Source: a virus. Taken from it: DNA of 60,106 nucleotides. Below the pieces are notes generated by a model. The model had not been told where the DNA came from and ran no database searches. It saw only the letters and a program-made list of their open reading frames with translations. A program made the translations under genes and the position numbers. The DNA lies in IMG/VR virus record IMGVR_UViG_3300046170_000227, positions 1 through 60,106 of that record. One strand, 5' to 3'. The stretch's first letter is position 1, and each line of letters begins with the position of its first letter. This document shows, in pieces, positions 16,945 to 46,572 of this stretch.

Positions 16945-17834
16945 TGGCGACAGAAACCACAATATCGCGACCAGCACCATTTGTAGAAGATATAGGAAAA
17001 GATTTAGCTAAACAGGCCGTTGCCTTTACAGGTGTTCCTGTTGTATCAGGTGGAATTGGAAGTTTATCACAACAAACAGGTGAGACTGCAGAAGGATTTA
17101 AAGCAAGACAAGATGCTGCAAGAGCATTTACAACAAGACAACAAAATTTAGCAGGACTTGCACCAACAGTTGCAGGTCAAGATGCATTACAAACACAAGC
17201 ACAAAATTTAGCAACACAAGGTGTTGGATCATACCAACCTTTTTTAGATCAAGCAAAAGCTTCAACTGGACCACAAGCTTTTCAAGAGTTTATGTCACCA
17301 TACCAATCACAAGTTATGGAAGCATCACTTGCAGAGTTTGATAGAAATGCACAAATGCAACAACAACAAATTTCAGATCAAGCAGTAGCATCAGGAGCTT
17401 TCGGTGGTGGACGTGAAGGTGTTATGCAATCAGAATATCAATTAGGTTCAGATAGAAACAGAGCGCAATTACAAGCAGGTTTATTAAATCAAGGGTTTCA
17501 ACAAGCTCAACAAGCAGCACAACAACAGTTTCAAAATCAACAAGGTCTAGCTCAATTAGTACCTGGATTACAAGGAACAGATATTTCACGTTTAGGTTCA
17601 TTGGGCGCATTGAATCAAGCGCAAACACAAGCGGGCCTAGATGCAACTAGAGAAGCAAACAGAATGGCTGCGTATCAACCACAAGAACAATTACAAAACT
17701 ACGGTAATCTTGTTACAGGGATCATGGGTGGAATGGCAGGATCAGGAACACAAACATCACAAGTACCAGATCCAGGATTCTTACAAACTGCATTAGGTGC
17801 AGCGGCTACTGGAGCAGGATATACGGCGCACTAA
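16944..17834 (+). CDS. Gln/Ala-rich putative internal virion protein
   Basis: 296 residues, starting by overlapping the previous stop (ATAATGG). Very rich in Gln and Ala, with long predicted helices (RAFTTRQQNLAGLAPTVAGQ, QAQQAAQQQFQNQQGLAQ). The block QISDQAVASGAFGGGREGVM is conserved in related marine phage proteins. C-terminal Gly/Ala-rich (GIMGGMAGSG, LGAAATGAG). By composition and position it resembles internal core or ejection proteins that enter the host with DNA. This is inferred. Confidence 0.65.
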   Translation: MATETTISRPAPFVEDIGKDLAKQAVAFTGVPVVSGGIGSLSQQTGETAEGFKARQDAARAFTTRQQNLAGLAPTVAGQDALQTQAQNLATQGVGSYQPFLDQAKASTGPQAFQEFMSPYQSQVMEASLAEFDRNAQMQQQQISDQAVASGAFGGGREGVMQSEYQLGSDRNRAQLQAGLLNQGFQQAQQAAQQQFQNQQGLAQLVPGLQGTDISRLGSLGALNQAQTQAGLDATREANRMAAYQPQEQLQNYGNLVTGIMGGMAGSGTQTSQVPDPGFLQTALGAAATGAGYTAH

Positions 17835-17843
17835 AAAAATAAT

Positions 17844-18872
17844 ATGAATAGAACATTAAAAAGACCGATGTTTAGAATGGGTGGTTCTACAAACTCTGGT
17901 ATTACATCAGGGTTAGATACACCAAGACAAGGTTATAAAGTACCTGGAGTTGTAGATAAGAACGATGTAATTAGACAAGATGCACAAAGAATATTTGATG
18001 TTGGAGTTGATTTAAGAAAAGCAAATCAAATACCTACAGATAGGATGTTATATGGATCAGTACCAAGTTTATTAACTTCTTTTGGTTTAAATTTAATGTC
18101 ACAAACGCCTAGAGGTAAAGGTTTAACTGGATTATTGGCTACAGCGGGTGAAGCTGCAAAAGAACCTTTTTCACAATTTCAACAAGGTAGACTTATGCAA
18201 CAAGAGAAAGCTAGAGGGAGAAGAGATGATGCTTTAGACTCAGCAGTAGCAAGTGCTGTGGATCTTGAAAGAGAAAGAATTGAAGCAGCTGGTAAAGGAG
18301 CAGGTGGTACAGAATTTGAAAAAGAGAGAAGAGTTCAAATGTTGAATTCTCTTTATGATAATAAAATTCTTAAAAAAGAAGTTGAATTAGAAAATGCTTC
18401 AGGAGAAGCAAGAGATAAAGTTTTAGCTGATATAGAAACTTTAAGAAGAGAAAAAGAAGATTATGCAACATCTATTCTTGCAGGAACTATGACAGAAGAT
18501 GACTTTGTAAAAGATATTATTATAGCCGGTGTTAAAAATGATGTGTTTGATCCTGCTAAAGTTGCAGAAAAATATCCTGCATTAGCTGGATTATTATATG
18601 ATGAAATGGCAGATGGTGGTAGAGCTGGTTATAATGTAGGTGGATCAGCAATGATGCCAGCAGTTGCAGAAGCTGATGAAGATCAAGTTGAAAATTTATC
18701 TTTTACCGAACTAAGAGCAAGATTACCTCAATCTATAGATAATGATATTGTGCAAGTAATTGCTAATAGCAAACAAGCTCTATTAGATTTTGCAAATATT
18801 AGAGATCAACAAGATGTTGATCAATTCAACCAAAGATACAACGTAAGTTTGAATATAGCACAAGAGGGTTAA
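17844..18872 (+). CDS. Putative internal virion protein with DGGRxG motif
   Basis: 342 residues. It opens MNRTLKRPMFRMGGSTNSGI, a start typical of a family in marine phages; a helical central region (coiled-coil-like EVELENASGEARDKVLADIE) follows. The MADGGRAGYNVGG motif is at 18606-18644. It lies between the Gln-rich protein and the large virion protein and abuts the latter (stop at 18872, next start 18873). Likely an internal or ejection protein; not proven. Confidence 0.65.
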   Translation: MNRTLKRPMFRMGGSTNSGITSGLDTPRQGYKVPGVVDKNDVIRQDAQRIFDVGVDLRKANQIPTDRMLYGSVPSLLTSFGLNLMSQTPRGKGLTGLLATAGEAAKEPFSQFQQGRLMQQEKARGRRDDALDSAVASAVDLERERIEAAGKGAGGTEFEKERRVQMLNSLYDNKILKKEVELENASGEARDKVLADIETLRREKEDYATSILAGTMTEDDFVKDIIIAGVKNDVFDPAKVAEKYPALAGLLYDEMADGGRAGYNVGGSAMMPAVAEADEDQVENLSFTELRARLPQSIDNDIVQVIANSKQALLDFANIRDQQDVDQFNQRYNVSLNIAQEG

Positions 18873-39264: not shown

Positions 39265-39582
39265 ATGCCTAAAAAGAAATCTAGACGTATAAATAGCTAT
39301 AACAAACCCAAAGCTGGTCAAAGCAGGCAGTTAAGTTTCCATACAAGCGTGTACGTATAGATTGGATTGACATCATCACAGAAGGTGGCTGGGGCACAGG
39401 TAAAAGAGTTTACTGATATGAAACTAGCTACACCTGTAAGTGAAGGTTGGCTGTTTTCTAAAGACAAAGATACTGTGAGAATATTTGCAGGTTATGATGT
39501 TGATGATGATGGTACTATTACTTTTTCGGAGCGATCGGTTTTTCCAACGTCTTGTGTGAAGAAGATAACGAAGATTCATTAG
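39265..39582 (+). CDS. Hypothetical protein, two indels
   Basis: Restored length ~105 residues. It opens MPKKKSRRINSYNKPKAGQS; a missing G near 39325 and an extra A near 39405 interrupt it. Repaired, it reads AVKFPYKRVRIDWIDIITEG, GTGKEFTDMKLATPVSEGWL and FSKDKDTVRIFAGYDVDDDG. This resembles small SH3-like phage proteins that modify transcription or translation, but that is weak. The 3' end overlaps the small terminase gene tail to tail by 65 bases. Confidence 0.5.
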
Positions 39583-40039
39583 GTGTCACATTTATCAGAG
39601 ATCCGTAATCGTCTATTATCTGTTTCATTTTTGCTTCTAGCTCTTGTTCTGATAGGTCCTCTAGTTTTCCTGTTTTTATTATCTTTCTATCTATGTATAG
39701 TCCTGCTGCTTTTCCTCTGTTTGCTTCCGCGTTCACTGCTGAAGAGAATGATCCTTTTTTTAAAGCGGCCTCTCTTAGTCTAGCAAGTTCTGCAATGTGT
39801 CCTTCATAAGATACCTCATGTTTTCTAATTCTCTCTTCTCTCAACTGTCCTAAATATTTTGCAACTAATGGTGAGAGTCTTGGGTTGTTTAATTCTGATC
39901 CTTCTTGTCTTGCACGTTTAGGACTGTAGCCAGCAGCGATAGCCGCTTCTGTTTGTGTCATTGGTCCTTCCGGTCCACCGAATACTAAGAACTCAGCAAA
40001 ACGTTGTTGCATTTCTGTTAATCTTTTTGGAACACCCAT
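39518..40039 (-). CDS. terS: Terminase small subunit
   Basis: 173 residues on the minus strand. LTEMQQRFAEFLVFGGPEGP, TQTEAAIAAGYSPKRARQEG (helix-turn-helix) and ALKKGSFSSAVNAEANRGKA then AGLYIDRKI form the DNA-recognition and oligomerisation blocks of phage small terminases. It selects phage DNA for packaging with the large subunit at 45091, which is on the other strand 5 kb away. The promoter places the transcript start at about its ATG, so the message may be leaderless. Confidence 0.85.
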   Translation of the reverse strand: MGVPKRLTEMQQRFAEFLVFGGPEGPMTQTEAAIAAGYSPKRARQEGSELNNPRLSPLVAKYLGQLREERIRKHEVSYEGHIAELARLREAALKKGSFSSAVNAEANRGKAAGLYIDRKIIKTGKLEDLSEQELEAKMKQIIDDYGSLINVTPNESSLSSSHKTLEKPIAPKK

Positions 40040-40536: not shown

Positions 40537-40914
40537 ATGGCGCCAGAGCGTAAATTATATCAAAAAGTTAAGAAACATTTTACCAATTTTTCCCTCATTA
40601 GACTTGAAAATAATAGCTTACACGGTACTCCCGATCTATTGGCTTATAATAATTCTGGCCACTTTTTCACTATCGAACTGAAAGTCACTTCGGGTAACCG
40701 ATTAAAGTTTTCACCACACCAAATAGCCTTTCATGTGAGGCATCCGAACAATACATTTATCATAGCAGAGGCCCTTGGTCCAAGGTCCGAGAAACTTATT
40801 TACATGTATCCTGGTTCAAGAATCTTGGAGCTTGAAGCCTGTGGCTTGAAGCTTGATCCTTTATGCTTGGGGCTTGAAGCTTGTGGCTTGTGGCTTAATA
40901 GACTTGGTGCTTGA
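40537..40914 (+). CDS. VRR-NUC-like nuclease with repeat-derived C-terminus
   Basis: 125 residues. RLENNSLHGTPDLLAY (Glu24, Asp33) and FFTIELKV (Glu47, Lys49) form a PD-(D/E)XK core of the VRR-NUC/Holliday-resolvase type; PHQIAFHVRH follows. The last ~30 residues (LELEACGLKLDPLCLGLEAC and onward) are translated directly from the CTTGNNG heptamer array, so the natural end was probably extended by the repeat. Shared array with the converging minus-strand gene. Confidence 0.7.
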   Translation: MAPERKLYQKVKKHFTNFSLIRLENNSLHGTPDLLAYNNSGHFFTIELKVTSGNRLKFSPHQIAFHVRHPNNTFIIAEALGPRSEKLIYMYPGSRILELEACGLKLDPLCLGLEACGLWLNRLGA

Positions 40915-40972
40915 AGCTTGCGGCTTGGAGCTTGATGCTTGTGGCTTGCTGCTTGGAGCTTGAGGCTTGTGG
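40824..40972. repeat. Tandem heptamer array CTTGNNG, about 20 units
   Basis: Near-perfect 7-base units (CTTGGAG, CTTGAAG, CTTGTGG, CTTGATC and similar) run for 149 bases, interrupted slightly at 40894-40904. On the minus strand, three units encode the 7-residue repeat KPQASSS, giving Ser/Pro/Gln/Lys tails; on the plus strand they encode LEACGLK-like repeats. The array lies where two genes converge. Related arrays are at 41744 and 42203. Confidence 0.85.
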
Positions 40973-41100
40973 CCCGGACCAGGTGCACGCTGGGCTTCAG
41001 CCGTCGCTTTTCCATTGCTAATGACCTGATCCGATTTATCCCTTGGGATTCTGTAAAATTTTGGGTGTTTAAAAACAAATGTCATGTTAGTGTTTACCAT
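40861..41100 (-). CDS. Small protein with KPQASSS repeat tail
   Basis: 79 residues on the minus strand. The N-terminal 36 residues (NTNMTFVFKHPKFYRIPRDK, SDQVISNGKATAEAQ) look like a small unique domain; the rest is heptapeptide repeats from the CTTGNNG array. It overlaps the GP88-like gene by 14 bases. A start at Met6 is equally possible. Function unknown; the tail length probably varies between isolates. Confidence 0.5.
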   Translation of the reverse strand: MVNTNMTFVFKHPKFYRIPRDKSDQVISNGKATAEAQRAPGPGHKPQAPSSKPQASSSKPQASSTKSIKPQATSFKPQA

Positions 41101-41686
41101 ATTCTATATTCTTAACAAGCGGGTCCCAGCAAGCTCGACAGCTGCCGCACTCATTGTTGTTGTCAGGGGCTGGACAGCTTCGACTCTTCGTCGAGACTGT
41201 TGACGTATTGGCCCAGCTCTTGACTGGTCCCTGGTCAATCATCGGTGATGAAAATCTTACAACTAAGTTTGCTGGCGCCATGTGCATATGGTCCTTGATC
41301 CACGCTTCACGCGTTGGCATCCAGTGACGCTTAGCTGGTGTGGCTCTACAGACTTCGAAAATTTTCATTAAGTGGGTGAAGTCCTGCACGTCGCCTGAAT
41401 CGTGCCATCTAAACACATCAGGCTTTTTGCTGTTGATCAGTGTTGCCATCGCTTCGACCCATTGCGGGTGATCAATTGCCTTCAGGCGCTTGTATTGCGC
41501 CGCTTGTACAACAGCGAAAACATAACAACCTTTCTCAGCGTAACAGCCTGAGCATACTGAGTTAGGTATTAATTTTAATTTGTTTCCAGTCTTGCATTCA
41601 GCAGCAGGAATTCCAATTGCCCAGCCGGGCATCTTCGACGGTTTACTTAGCCCTCCAACCAGGGCCCATGCTTCTTTAGTATTCAT
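41087..41686 (-). CDS. GP88-family phage protein
   Basis: 199 residues. MPGWAIGIPAAECKTGNKLK, then CSGCYAEKGCYVF (Cys45, Cys48, Cys54), FRWHDSGDVQDF (92-103) and a Cys-rich C-terminus (CPAPDNNNECGSCRACW) fit the GP88 family of phage proteins known from actinophages and others. The paired Cys suggest zinc or Fe-S binding; activity is not established. Codon use and GC are higher than in the surrounding genome, suggesting transfer. Driven by the minus promoter at 41714. Confidence 0.7.
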   Translation of the reverse strand: MNTKEAWALVGGLSKPSKMPGWAIGIPAAECKTGNKLKLIPNSVCSGCYAEKGCYVFAVVQAAQYKRLKAIDHPQWVEAMATLINSKKPDVFRWHDSGDVQDFTHLMKIFEVCRATPAKRHWMPTREAWIKDHMHMAPANLVVRFSSPMIDQGPVKSWANTSTVSTKSRSCPAPDNNNECGSCRACWDPLVKNIEYGKH

Positions 41687-41868
41687 ATTCTTTTGTCCTT
41701 TCTTTTATAGGATACTATAACATTATAATTCTTACGTGTCAAGCTTGCGGCTTGTCGCTTGCAGCTTGAGGCTTGTTGCTTGTAGCTCGGTCCTTGGGCC
41801 TCGAGCCAGCGCCAGTGGTGCAGCAGGATCTGTATACTTTCAGATCCTGCTCTATGGGCCTTATTCAT
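41683..41868 (-). CDS. Small protein with repeat-derived tail
   Basis: 61 residues on the minus strand: MNKAHRAGSESIQILLHHWR, then WLEAQGPSYKQQASSCKRQA from the heptamer array at 41744-41792, and a basic end. The start overlaps the upstream stop (ATGA), and its 3' end contains the promoter of the GP88-like gene. Function unknown. Confidence 0.5.
   Translation of the reverse strand: MNKAHRAGSESIQILLHHWRWLEAQGPSYKQQASSCKRQAASLTRKNYNVIVSYKRKDKRI
41714..41742 (-). promoter_or_regulatory. Minus-strand sigma70-like promoter
   Basis: Minus strand TTGACA (41742-41737), 17 bases, TATAGT (41719-41714), immediately followed by ATCCTATA. It lies 28 bases upstream of the GP88-like start codon, with AGAAAGGAC as a ribosome site between. 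Confidence 0.65.
41744..41792. repeat. Tandem heptamer array, about 7 units
   Basis: Seven units of the CTTGNNG type (CTTGCGG, CTTGTCG, CTTGCAG, CTTGAGG, CTTGTTG, CTTGTAG, CTCGGTC) lie just upstream of the promoter at 41714 and inside the 3' part of the gene at 41683-41868. Same family as the array at 40824. Confidence 0.75.
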
Positions 41869-42017
41869 TTTAAATATCCAATCTCTTTCAGGTAGTCATA
41901 GGCATCATCCATCGTGGATCTAAAATGCTCAGTCCTGTATTCGGCTGGACAGTCTTCATCAGCCTGGCAGCACATAGCTGCCAGGTGAGCTGCAAGTATT
42001 TTTTCTTTTTCAGTCAT
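41865..42017 (-). CDS. Small hypothetical protein
   Basis: 50 residues on the minus strand: MTEKEKILAAHLAAMCCQAD, then EDCPAEYRTEHFRSTMDDAY and DYLKEIGYLK. Helical, with three Cys. Its start overlaps the previous gene by eight bases (ATGACTGA) and its stop overlaps the next start (ATGA), strong support for a real coupled gene. Function unknown. Confidence 0.55.
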   Translation of the reverse strand: MTEKEKILAAHLAAMCCQADEDCPAEYRTEHFRSTMDDAYDYLKEIGYLK

Positions 42018-42144
42018 CCTTTCTGTCCTCCATGTATTTTCTTGATCTCTCCTGATCTTCCTTCACCATCCGGATGATCTCTTCCAGGGCGTTAGCTACT
42101 CTGTTCAGCTGCTCACCAGCTTCGTATATTTTTATTTTACTCAT
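42010..42144 (-). CDS. Small helical protein
   Basis: 44 residues on the minus strand: MSKIKIYEAGEQLNRVANAL, then EEIIRMVKEDQERSRKYMED. A continuous amphipathic helix, likely a coiled coil. It starts about 25 bases after the -10 of the promoter at 42169 and overlaps the next gene by eight bases. Function unknown. Confidence 0.55.
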   Translation of the reverse strand: MSKIKIYEAGEQLNRVANALEEIIRMVKEDQERSRKYMEDRKDD

Positions 42145-42168
42145 ATGTATTTCTCACTTTCTATATTA

Positions 42169-42197
42169 ATCCTACATTATCCTTGAGCCATTGTCAA
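42169..42197 (-). promoter_or_regulatory. Minus-strand sigma70-like promoter, -10 TAGGAT
   Basis: Minus strand TTGACA (42197-42192), 17 bases, TAGGAT (42174-42169). Spacing is ideal and the -10 is the same TAGGAT hexamer as at 43829 and 44586. It would transcribe the chain of small genes 42144 to 41683. Confidence 0.65.
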
Positions 42198-42401
42198 GCG
42201 CTGCTTGCGGCTTGAGGCTTGGCGCTCTCTGCTCTTCTTCTTTAGAATGATTTTTAGAATCATTCTAAACTGGCAATTTACCCGTTGCGCCTCCTGATCA
42301 GGGAACTCGGCGCACCATGGTGTTACACACATTGCTACCTTGCGGATCATCGCTAACGTACAGGGAAATGCCAGAGGCAAGATGTGGACGCTGGTGTACA
42401 C
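42177..42401 (-). CDS. Doubtful minus-strand reading frame
   Basis: 74 codons from a GTG at 42401, with internal Met codons (AMIRKVAMCVTPWCAEFPDQ) and a heptamer-derived end. No ribosome site is seen, it contains a 12-bp hairpin (42241-42269), and it runs into the promoter at 42169. Either a poorly conserved small gene or part of a structured leader. Kept because it is the only long frame here. Confidence 0.25.
   Translation of the reverse strand: MYTSVHILPLAFPCTLAMIRKVAMCVTPWCAEFPDQEAQRVNCQFRMILKIILKKKSRERQASSRKQRLTMAQG
42203..42224. repeat. Short heptamer array, three units
   Basis: CTTGCGG, CTTGAGG, CTTGGCG at 42204-42224, the third locus of the CTTGNNG family, next to the promoter at 42169. 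As at 41744, the array sits beside a minus-strand TTGACA box. Confidence 0.6.
42241..42269. promoter_or_regulatory. Palindrome and 12-bp hairpin
   Basis: TTTAGAATGATT (42241-42252) pairs with AATCATTCTAAA (42258-42269) around five bases. The same stretch contains the palindrome TTTAGAAT-C-ATTCTAAA (42253-42269), identical in arms to 38905-38921. Could be an operator (one and a half sites) or a transcript hairpin. Confidence 0.5.
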
Positions 42402-42419
42402 TTACTGATACTATTATTA

Positions 42420-42723
42420 GCAGGACCCTGAGTTGAGGCCGGCGTGCTTTATTTTAACAGCCCGGGCAACAGGCCTAACAGGTTATCACCTGTCAGGGTC
42501 CAGCAAATAATGATCAGTCACTATGCTACGCGGGGTAGGTAGCGTTGCTTAATACCATGCAGGATCCTACGCGTGCCCCCGGGTTATAGTGTTATCTCCA
42601 CAGTCAATAATGACTGATCCCAGATCCAATTTACCAGTTCTAAAGCATAGCTGAACTTACTATCTATTGGATCAGGGATCAGTGCAGGGGAATTTTTAGG
42701 GTATCCCCTGCTCCTATTTTTTT
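42420..42723 (+). ncRNA. Candidate structured non-coding RNA
   Basis: About 300 bases, GC-richer than the genome, with no plausible gene but many perfect complementary blocks. P1 GGACCCTGA (42423-42431) with 42493-42501, enclosing AGGCC/GGCCT (42436, 42472) and hairpin ACAGGT-TATC-ACCTGT (42478-42493). P4 GATCAGTCA (42512) with 42611-42619, enclosing CACTAT/ATAGTG (42519, 42586) and GTAGG/CCTAC (42535, 42566). P6, about 18 bp with one mismatch (42613-42630 with 42666-42683), caps a smaller hairpin. It ends at a terminator. P4 and P6 compete for 42613-42619. Strand is uncertain; the terminator favours plus, a minus promoter lies at 42757. Confidence 0.55.
42684..42723 (+). terminator. Rho-independent terminator
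   Basis: GCAGGGGA (42684-42691) pairs perfectly with TCCCCTGC (42704-42711), 12-base loop, followed by TCCTA and seven T (42717-42723). It ends the candidate structured RNA and would stop plus-strand read-through into the gene at 42835. Confidence 0.8.
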
Positions 42724-42756
42724 ATTTCACCTAAACAGAATAAAAAACATAAATGC

Positions 42757-42785
42757 AATATAATCCTTGACTATCCTATTGTCAA
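42757..42785 (-). promoter_or_regulatory. Minus-strand promoter overlapping a weak plus-strand one
   Basis: Minus: TTGACA (42785-42780), 17 bases, TATATT (42762-42757). Plus: TTGACT (42767-42772), 17 bases, TAAAAC, weaker, serving the gene at 42835. ATCCTATTGTCAAG in the middle is shared with the site at 40041. A minus transcript would run antisense through the candidate RNA toward the 42.1 kb gene chain. Confidence 0.5.
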
Positions 42786-42834
42786 GTAGTAAAACAATTA
42801 AATGCAAAATAAAAATAATAACCAGAAAGGTACA

Positions 42835-43699
42835 ATGACTAAAATAAGAATGAATACAGAGTTAAGAAACAAACTCTTTAATAAAATAAAAAATGTCTTT
42901 GAGAATGAGGACACTCAAGAACGAGAGGCATATCTTCAATCAAGAGAGTATGTTGATGAGCAATATACAACTGCACACAAACTTGCAAAAGAAGTTGTTG
43001 AGAGATCATATCCAACAGAAGATGTTGCAACATTAAGACACTTTAAAAATAAATATGGAAGTCCTTGTGATGTTGTTGCAAAAGATAAATGCTTTTACTT
43101 TGCACACAATGAGGGTGTTGATGATGAGGGCGAACCAAAAGAAACTAAATCACATTTTGATTTTGGTTTGTTTGGCAATACCAATGGTAGTGAGTACGAT
43201 CATACAGAGGGTAATCACTTTGCACTTGCTTATTATCGTGAGGATTTAAAAGCTATGGATTGCAACCCAGATATCTATGCACAACAAAAAGAAAACAAAG
43301 AGAATCCCACACAAAACAAAACATGTTGATGAGTGTTTAAAAGCACTTGGCAAAGTTGGTAATTATCATTCTTCAAATGATAATGTTGGTATGGCAAAAA
43401 CATTTGATGACCAATACTATCTTGATGTAATTGGAACATCTTATTGCAGATCACGTGCAATCGCATGTACTAAAGATGAGTACGAGCAATTTGAAACTTG
43501 GCGAATTGCAAAAGCTAATGTTGTATCTAAACACCAAACATGGATTGATACAATTCAAAAACAATGCGATCAGTTAAAGATTGGATTGAAAGCATACAGA
43601 TATCTTTCAGAGGGTATTGAACTTGCTACTGAACTTGGAATACAATTAGATGAGGCAGAGTTAATTAGAACTAACTCAACAGGGATTGACTATCTATAA
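42835..43699 (+). CDS. Conserved hypothetical protein, +1 indel
   Basis: Restored length 287 residues from ATG 42835 (AGAAAGG upstream); a start at 42802 lacks a site. TKIRMNTELRNKLFNKIKNV, FDFGLFGNTNGSEYDHTEGN, then an A-run indel near 43300, VDECLKALGKVGNYHSSNDN, YYLDVIGTSYCRSRAIACTK and YRYLSEGIELATELGIQLDE. N-terminal helical, central acidic part, C-terminal coiled coil. No family recognised. First gene after the 42767 promoter; likely early. Confidence 0.6.
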
Positions 43700-45090: not shown

Positions 45091-46572
45091 ATGAATTTGA
45101 ATAACGTAGATATTAGTAAGCTACCTGCAGACGTCAGAAAGACATTCAAGAAACTGCAAGTCATGCATGCAGAAAAACAAATCCAAGGTAAAGCCAGAGA
45201 TGACTTCATGTCCTTTGTAAAATGTGTGTGGCCCGATTTTATAGAAGGATCTCACCATAGACACATAGCAAAAAAATTTAATGAACTTGCAACAGGAGAA
45301 ATTACTAGACTGATTGTCAACATGCCTCCACGTCATACGAAATCAGAATTTGCAAGTTACTTGTTACCAGCGTGGATGGTGGGCCGTAACCCTAAGTTAA
45401 AGATAATCCAAGCAACTCACACAGGAGAACTAGCCGTAAGATTTGGTCGTAAAGCTAAAACCTTGATTGATAGTGACGAGTATGGAAAAATATTTGAAAC
45501 AAGACTAAGAGAAGATTCGCAAGCCGCTGGTAGGTGGGAGACAGCACAAGGTGGTGAGTATTTTGCAGCTGGTGTCGGCGGTGCAATAACCGGACGGGGT
45601 GCTGACTTATTAATAATTGATGATCCACATTCTGAGCAAGACGCAATGAGTCCGACTGCAATGGAATCTGCTTATGAATGGTATACATCAGGTCCACGTC
45701 AGCGTTTACAACCTGGTGGTAAAATTATATTGGTTATGACTAGATGGTCTAACAAAGATCTGACAGGTAAATTAGTTAGTAACCAAAAAGAAGCTAAAGC
45801 TGATCAGTGGCACGTGGTCGAATTTCCAGCAATCTTGGACCACGGATCAAAGAAACAAAAACCTGTTTGGCCTGAGTATTGGAAGCTCGATGAGTTAGAG
45901 AAAGTCCAAGCAACACTGCCCACGGGCAAATGGAACGCACAGTGGATGCAAAATCCAACAAGTGATGAAGGTGCAATTATAAAACGAGAATGGTGGAGAA
46001 CATGGAAGCATGATTGGATACCAGAACTACATCACGTCATACAATCTTATGATACAGCATTTTTAAAAAAAGAAACTGCTGACTACTCAGCTATTACTAC
46101 TTGGGGTGTATTTTACCCGGACCAAGACTCAGGTGCTAATTTAATGTTATTAGATTCTATAAAAGGTAGATATGAGTTTCCTGAATTACGTAGATTAGCG
46201 TTAGAACAATATAAGTATTGGCAACCAGAATCGGTTATAGTTGAAGCAAAAGCATCAGGTTTACCTCTTACATACGAGCTTAGACAGATGGATATACCGG
46301 TTGTGAACTTCACACCATCACGTGGAAATGATAAACATTCACGTGTAAATGCTGTTGCACCTTTGTTTGAATCTGGTATGATATGGGCGCCTGAGCAGAA
46401 ATTCGCAGATGACGTCATTGAAGAGTGCGCTGCGTTTCCGTATGGCGATCATGATGACTTAGTCGACTCGACTACACAAGCAATCATGCGTTTTAGACAA
46501 GCAGGGTTATTACAACACCCTGAAGACTACGTGGATGAACCGCGTGAGGAACGTAAAAGGAATTACTATTAA
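45091..46572 (+). CDS. terL: Terminase large subunit
   Basis: 493 residues. ATPase: Walker A-like PPRHTKS (79-85), Walker B LLIIDDPHS (173-181), coupling region VMTRW (215-219). Nuclease: QSYDTAF (Asp321), VIVEAKASG (Glu385) and YGDHDDLVDS (Asp455/456), the RNase H-like metal triad. It docks on the portal and pumps and cuts DNA; its small subunit is at 39518 on the other strand. Start after a long A/T run without a clear ribosome site. Ends overlapping the next gene (TAATG). Confidence 0.93.
   Translation: MNLNNVDISKLPADVRKTFKKLQVMHAEKQIQGKARDDFMSFVKCVWPDFIEGSHHRHIAKKFNELATGEITRLIVNMPPRHTKSEFASYLLPAWMVGRNPKLKIIQATHTGELAVRFGRKAKTLIDSDEYGKIFETRLREDSQAAGRWETAQGGEYFAAGVGGAITGRGADLLIIDDPHSEQDAMSPTAMESAYEWYTSGPRQRLQPGGKIILVMTRWSNKDLTGKLVSNQKEAKADQWHVVEFPAILDHGSKKQKPVWPEYWKLDELEKVQATLPTGKWNAQWMQNPTSDEGAIIKREWWRTWKHDWIPELHHVIQSYDTAFLKKETADYSAITTWGVFYPDQDSGANLMLLDSIKGRYEFPELRRLALEQYKYWQPESVIVEAKASGLPLTYELRQMDIPVVNFTPSRGNDKHSRVNAVAPLFESGMIWAPEQKFADDVIEECAAFPYGDHDDLVDSTTQAIMRFRQAGLLQHPEDYVDEPREERKRNYY

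Follow-up and report, generated by a model that had tools for sequence, protein, structure and literature searches.

A candidate modular non-coding RNA on the minus strand between the terminase genes of HTVC023P-type pelagiphages

HTVC023P-type pelagiphages, widespread marine viruses of the most abundant ocean bacteria, carry between their terminase genes terS and terL an array which comparison of homologous regions shows to be conserved, strand-specific, structured and modular, and to be selected for its fold and not for its sequence. We propose that the array encodes a modular non-coding RNA of about 460-500 nt on the minus strand with its own promoter, a proposal which we hold to be evenly balanced when the assembly and the scaffold or decoy steps described below are included. 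The DNA analyzed here, referred to as the window, is a virus record of 60,106 bases. In it, the array is intergenic between divergent terS-side and terL-side genes and is separated from terS and terL themselves by several genes. The features are given by position in the window:

39518-40039, minus strand: terS, terminase small subunit
42241-42269, no strand assigned: AT-rich palindrome TTTAGAATGATTTTTAGAATCATTCTAAA at the 3′ edge of the array, present in many relatives
42280-42399, minus strand: Flavobacterium-1 RNA (RF02976, found by cmscan), the 3′ domain of the array
42413-42511, minus strand: B frame, ATTATTTGCTGGACC...GGTCCTGCTAATAAT (minus strand) around a swappable core
42512-42619, minus strand: C1 frame, the main module, GATCAGTC...GACTGATC and CACTATAAC...GTAGCATAGTG, with a hypervariable pseudoknot core
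42538-42572, minus strand: C1 core of the window phage, with P2 (42538-42541/42553-42556) and pseudoknot (42542-42545/42569-42572)
42561-42568, minus strand: self-complementary octamer AGGATCCT within the pseudoknot linker, a candidate homodimerisation site
42612-42619, no strand assigned: shared segment, near-invariant in 122 C1 modules
42613-42683, minus strand: C2 frame, a long stem ACTGATCCC...GGGATCAGT (42613-42630/42666-42683) around a variable core
42684-42711, minus strand: 5′ hairpin module
42785-42757, minus strand: sigma-70-like promoter TTGACA-N17-TATATT, facing the array, 11/12 consensus matches
45091-46572, plus strand: terL, terminase large subunit

From its 5′ end on the minus strand, the array consists of the 5′ hairpin, C2, C1, B, Flavobacterium-1 and the AT-rich palindrome, in this order. 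Comparison with relatives shows the array to be a mosaic of constant outer frames around hypervariable cores, with 122 distinct C1 module sequences and 99 distinct C1 cores, about 100 distinct inner cores in C2 and about 48 in B. Several of the B cores occur in the C2 frame as well, so that whole domains are exchanged between frames. The shared segment at 42612-42619 has three possible, mutually exclusive pairing partners: the C2 arm, the other C1 arm and an adjacent CAGTCA/TGACTG repeat. Because the segment is common to both, the C2 and C1 stems would not both be fully closed at once, and the RNA might switch between the alternative pairings. The palindrome at 42241-42269 is a possible processing site or operator. 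A second structured patch in the window (41745-41865, stem CAGGATCTG...CAGATCCTG) is among the strongest folding windows and sits between the GP88 gene and small ORFs; similar sequence is found in the related locus L189.

An earlier sequence-only reading had taken part of this stretch for a structured RNA of about 300 nt on the plus strand, with a single fold and a textbook terminator. The structured RNA itself is well supported, being conserved, with many homologues, extensive covariation and no protein, whereas strand, length, terminator and single fixed fold had to be given up: the array comprises about 460-500 nt of interchangeable modules and extends from about 42740 down to 42280, beyond the left end of the region first described. 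The strong nested stems which had been pointed out are present and more stable than every shuffled control, the minimum free energy of 42410-42730 being -112.5 kcal/mol, whereas 100 dinucleotide-shuffled sequences have -87.8 ± 5.3 kcal/mol (z -4.7; 0/100 as good). Folding of both strands against shuffled controls, proposed as a check, yielded z -4.7 for the plus and z -5.2 for the reverse strand; as the reverse strand is equally stable, the strand is undecidable by folding alone. For the minus strand of 42235-42745, z was -4.8. The noted GC enrichment was borne out (49% in 42280-42720 vs 35% for the window), the region holds short ORFs only and no credible gene, and ARAGORN found 0 genes in the window, in agreement with the view that this is neither a tRNA nor a tmRNA.

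Relatives were gathered by pattern and protein-guided scans of IMG/VR. A gapped pattern scan gave no matches, the cores probably being longer than the permitted gap. In total, 108 distinct homologous intergenic regions were obtained, all located upstream of a homologue of HTVC027P gp35, the right-hand gene, and 96 of them have the left-hand GP88-family gene (PF17338) on the same contig. Most of the 108 regions contain module C, its orientation relative to the flanking genes being conserved; the Flavobacterium-1 domain is found in about half of them, and module B varies. The cultured Pelagibacter phage HTVC027P, classed as an HTVC023P-type pelagiphage (PMC9599517; PMC12753301), is one of the relatives; its homologous intergenic sequence, 17759-18157 of MN698241, is flanked by gp34 (minus) and gp35 (plus). 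In HTVC033P, only a distant relative of the flanking gene was found, and there is no divergent intergenic region. In the window phage, the homologue of gp35 (333 aa; 42802-43699, plus strand) is in two frames, 42802-43329 and 43277-43699, reflecting either a frameshift or an assembly error.

As the sequence-only reading had called for, covariation in these homologues is extensive, with the pseudoknot included, and the homologous regions are without a conserved protein. On the minus strand, the elements of C1 follow in the order P1 5′, pseudoknot 5′, linker, P2 5′, loop, pseudoknot 3′, P2 3′ and P1 3′, and the alignments show that the larger C1 core families keep this one topology of a P1 stem enclosing a pseudoknot. 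In family A1 (22 sequences), 98.9% of the cells pair, and two-sided changes occur in 11 of 17 pairs, including 4/5 pseudoknot pairs, compared with 4.2 ± 1.1 pairs in shuffles and 0-2 pairs in slid alignments; since the sequences are related and not independent, the shuffle counts are not probabilities. Two-sided changes were likewise found in 10/17 pairs of family A2 (14 sequences), among them 3/3 pseudoknot pairs, and in 5/9 pairs of P1 and P2 in family A3 (25 sequences). At the foot of P1, all four Watson-Crick combinations are seen: C-G, G-C, A-U and U-A. For the C1 core of the window phage, the topology is backed by covariation in sister families, and its own six-member family varies modestly. 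A few smaller C1 core families gave no clean segmentation into the P1/pseudoknot topology.

In A1 and A3, the two largest core families, the pseudoknot linker holds a self-complementary octamer which differs between alleles but retains its self-complementarity: it self-pairs in 100% of the aligned cells with two-sided changes in 3/4 and 4/4 pairs, respectively (examples are GGGATCCC, GGAGCTCC, GAGATCTC, GGATATCC, GGGTACCC and GACTAGTC). When 22 distinct octamers were chosen by flank motif, 12 were self-complementary, compared with 1.5 expected and a maximum of 6 in 2000 shuffles; the octamer is missing or non-palindromic in several core families. Folded back on itself, it would leave no bases for a loop and so cannot make an ordinary hairpin. 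A register with a 3-nt loop, which would make an ordinary short hairpin, was rejected because its pairing is poorer and two-sided change is absent from it in A3. The linker of family A2 is a hairpin whose loop holds short palindromes such as GGTACC. Of 132 comparisons between predicted self-duplex and cross-duplex, 129 gave the self-duplex equal or greater stability. Intermolecular pairing would be the simplest reading of the octamer and suggests homodimerisation. In the proposed mechanism, the octamers or loop palindromes would pair between two copies, so that an RNA would associate with its own kind and little with other alleles, a step for and against which we see about equal grounds.

The strand of the RNA was deduced from non-Watson-Crick pairs in the variable stems, which read on the plus strand comprise 71 A-C vs 6 G-T. 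Since an A-C on the plus strand corresponds to a G-U pair of a minus-strand RNA, this asymmetry shows, by comparison of relatives, that the array RNA is encoded on the minus strand, contrary to the plus-strand assignment first made. The C2 frame contributes 1033 Watson-Crick, 44 A-C and 1 G-T pairs on the plus strand (61 distinct arm pairs, counted on oriented loci because this frame is palindromic), and the ratio of A-C to G-T is 13:2 in the B frame and 14:3 in a hairpin whose loop is constant. With the C1 cores aligned and read as minus strand, 9 G-U and 2 A-C pairs were counted; P1 of C1 favours neither strand (4:3). The Flavobacterium-1 match and the near-consensus promoter also lie on the minus strand. 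This promoter is one of the two joint-best in 41600-43000, and a related motif (up to 3 substitutions) was recognized in 48 of the 108 relatives. From it we infer a transcription start near 42750, and the transcript would probably begin there and continue leftwards over C2, C1, B and Flavobacterium-1. CAAGCNN heptad-like repeats occur at 40800-41080, 41740-41790 and 42205-42225 of the window. Two of these patches, here and likewise in relatives, are directly upstream of minus-strand TTGACA promoters and are possibly an activator site.

The main rival explanation is a long structured 5′ leader which controls or protects the mRNA of the minus-strand genes gp34 and gp33 (GP88). The array is on the same strand as these genes and upstream of them in nearly all loci, and in HTVC027P they are the genes directly downstream of it. 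A terminator was sought at the left end of the array and none was found between the array and gp34/gp33, so that the array RNA may run on into them. In HTVC027P, gp34 and gp33 are highly expressed at 6-9 h and form their own, unusual expression cluster (PMC12753301). This common cluster is in line with a leader, and it fits active minus-strand transcription at this site, the array RNA itself being inferred. Against a leader stands a second promoter, TTGACA-N17-TAGGAT, which lies between the array and the minus-strand genes (42197-42169) and has similar counterparts in relatives. Moreover, the hypervariable, exchangeable cores are unlike known cis-regulators, and some contigs carry a stand-alone Flavobacterium-1 copy. 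Taken together, we regard a leader as rather unlikely.

Cores are exchanged between phages as well. The identity of C1 cores and that of the flanking genes are hardly correlated (r = 0.15; 70 loci, 2415 pairs): cores at least 95% identical adjoin genes of 85% median identity, and beside genes that are at least 93% identical the C1 cores are often unrelated (median 62%). Cores thus move between phages, uncoupled from the neighbouring genes, in addition to moving between frames. In one phage, the B module is tandemly duplicated (L021:3969-4158). GC-rich mobile hairpin elements without phage function, nested at one tolerant site in the manner of mitochondrial GC clusters, would produce nested modules, cores common to several frames and a mosaic distribution. 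However, the array has no further copies scattered over the window, in which strong inverted repeats are otherwise few, its orientation and location are fixed, and mobile hairpins leave unexplained both the pseudoknot and the strand-specific selection of G-U pairs, which makes this explanation improbable. We give a little less credit still to a DNA-level element such as a replication origin, a packaging site or a recombination hot spot, in which the hairpins would act as cruciforms or in single-stranded DNA. The location between terS and terL and the octamers, which are palindromic in DNA too, would suit such an element, but the 71:6 asymmetry is unexpected for DNA hairpins, as are H-type pseudoknots kept by covariation. 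Finally, the plus-strand RNA of about 300 nt with an intrinsic terminator at 42723 is contradicted by the comparative data and highly improbable, since its terminator-like hairpin and T run in the window phage and its stable plus-strand fold are set against the G-U asymmetry, a T run in few relatives and nearby plus-strand promoter-like sites that are no better than weak (9/12).

Concerning this terminator, a plus-strand scan does detect the site at 42684-42711, but chance alone would give 1.1 sites of this kind. As a conserved feature it was rejected, since at least 7 T after the corresponding hairpin are found in only 11 of 73 relatives. In relatives other hairpins take its place, and a more fitting reading is that of an exchangeable 5′ hairpin in the putative minus-strand RNA.

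Among known RNA families, cmscan with Rfam found nothing over 42413-42711, most of the region of the sequence-only reading, and assigned the stretch to its left, 42280-42399, to Flavobacterium-1 (104.3 bits, gathering score 58.9, model positions 1-121). The left 120 nt of the array are thus a full-length minus-strand match, here and in many relatives. In contrast to the Rfam model, which comprises 121 nt alone, the RNA forms here a 3′ domain beside at least three structured domains absent from Rfam. Apart from, or beyond, the array copy, further matches occur at L022:6421-6536, L032:3676-3797 and L259:6655-6775, so the domain can stand alone. In GTDB, a 19-nt C1 motif is matched exactly by one contig only, a scaffold from a Flavobacterium single cell with phage terminase-side genes (L197; KB911123.1, Flavobacterium sp. 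SCGC AAA160-P02). It carries the array and probably comes from a phage, and the name given in Rfam may go back to a contig of this sort. Beyond Flavobacterium-1, Rfam gave no match in the window or in 36 related loci, and the literature searched, open without subscription, yielded no publication about Flavobacterium-1 RNA or a non-coding RNA of pelagiphages.

Several characterized systems resemble the array in part. GOLLD and ROOL RNAs form homo-oligomers via intermolecular kissing loops, some of which are conserved by covariation (PMC12286853). The array shares with them that they are large, ornate, phage-associated non-coding RNAs, but it is shorter, is a mosaic of exchangeable modules and lies in a window without tRNA genes. 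Covariance models of GOLLD, ROOL and OLE gave no match at gathering scores and none at E≤5 in 42240-42740; the array perhaps works like GOLLD and ROOL, by analogy, yet is no member of these families by this test. The cabRNA of staphylococcal phages is structured, about 400 nt long, located in the terS/terL region and divergent between phages (PMC10686824). Whereas cabRNA derives from terS/terL coding sequence, the array is intergenic, and it evolves by module exchange and is without a known cyclase sensor. The ToxI RNAs of type III toxin-antitoxin systems are small H-type pseudoknots in a non-coding array, and H-type pseudoknots in a non-coding array are found here too. An array of identical tandem units is absent from this locus, and no ToxN-like toxin gene was recognized downstream of the array, where the proteins belong to the GP88 family or to no family.

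For the proposed minus-strand modular RNA, a more tentative part of the mechanism is that, during infection, the assembled RNA would present several domains to a protein as a scaffold or decoy, and that its cores would diversify by recombination at the constant frames, selected by the protein partner or by an RNA-sensing host defence; we consider this combination possible but speculative. With similar reserve, the element might be a combinatorial, allele-specific, self-assembling phage RNA, with private self-complementary sites on interchangeable pseudoknot domains, self-only recognition and an exchange of these domains among phages, at the level of RNA, like that of antigenic cassettes.

If the proposed reading is true, these phages carry an RNA with domains that are shuffled and strongly diversified while fold and topology stay the same, as is better known for surface proteins. 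The roughly 100 natural core alleles, in which pseudoknots are preserved, also offer a rare set on which to test the prediction of RNA structure, and the orphan Flavobacterium-1 RNA gains a context. As HTVC027P is cultured and its RNA-sequencing data are public, the question is directly testable.
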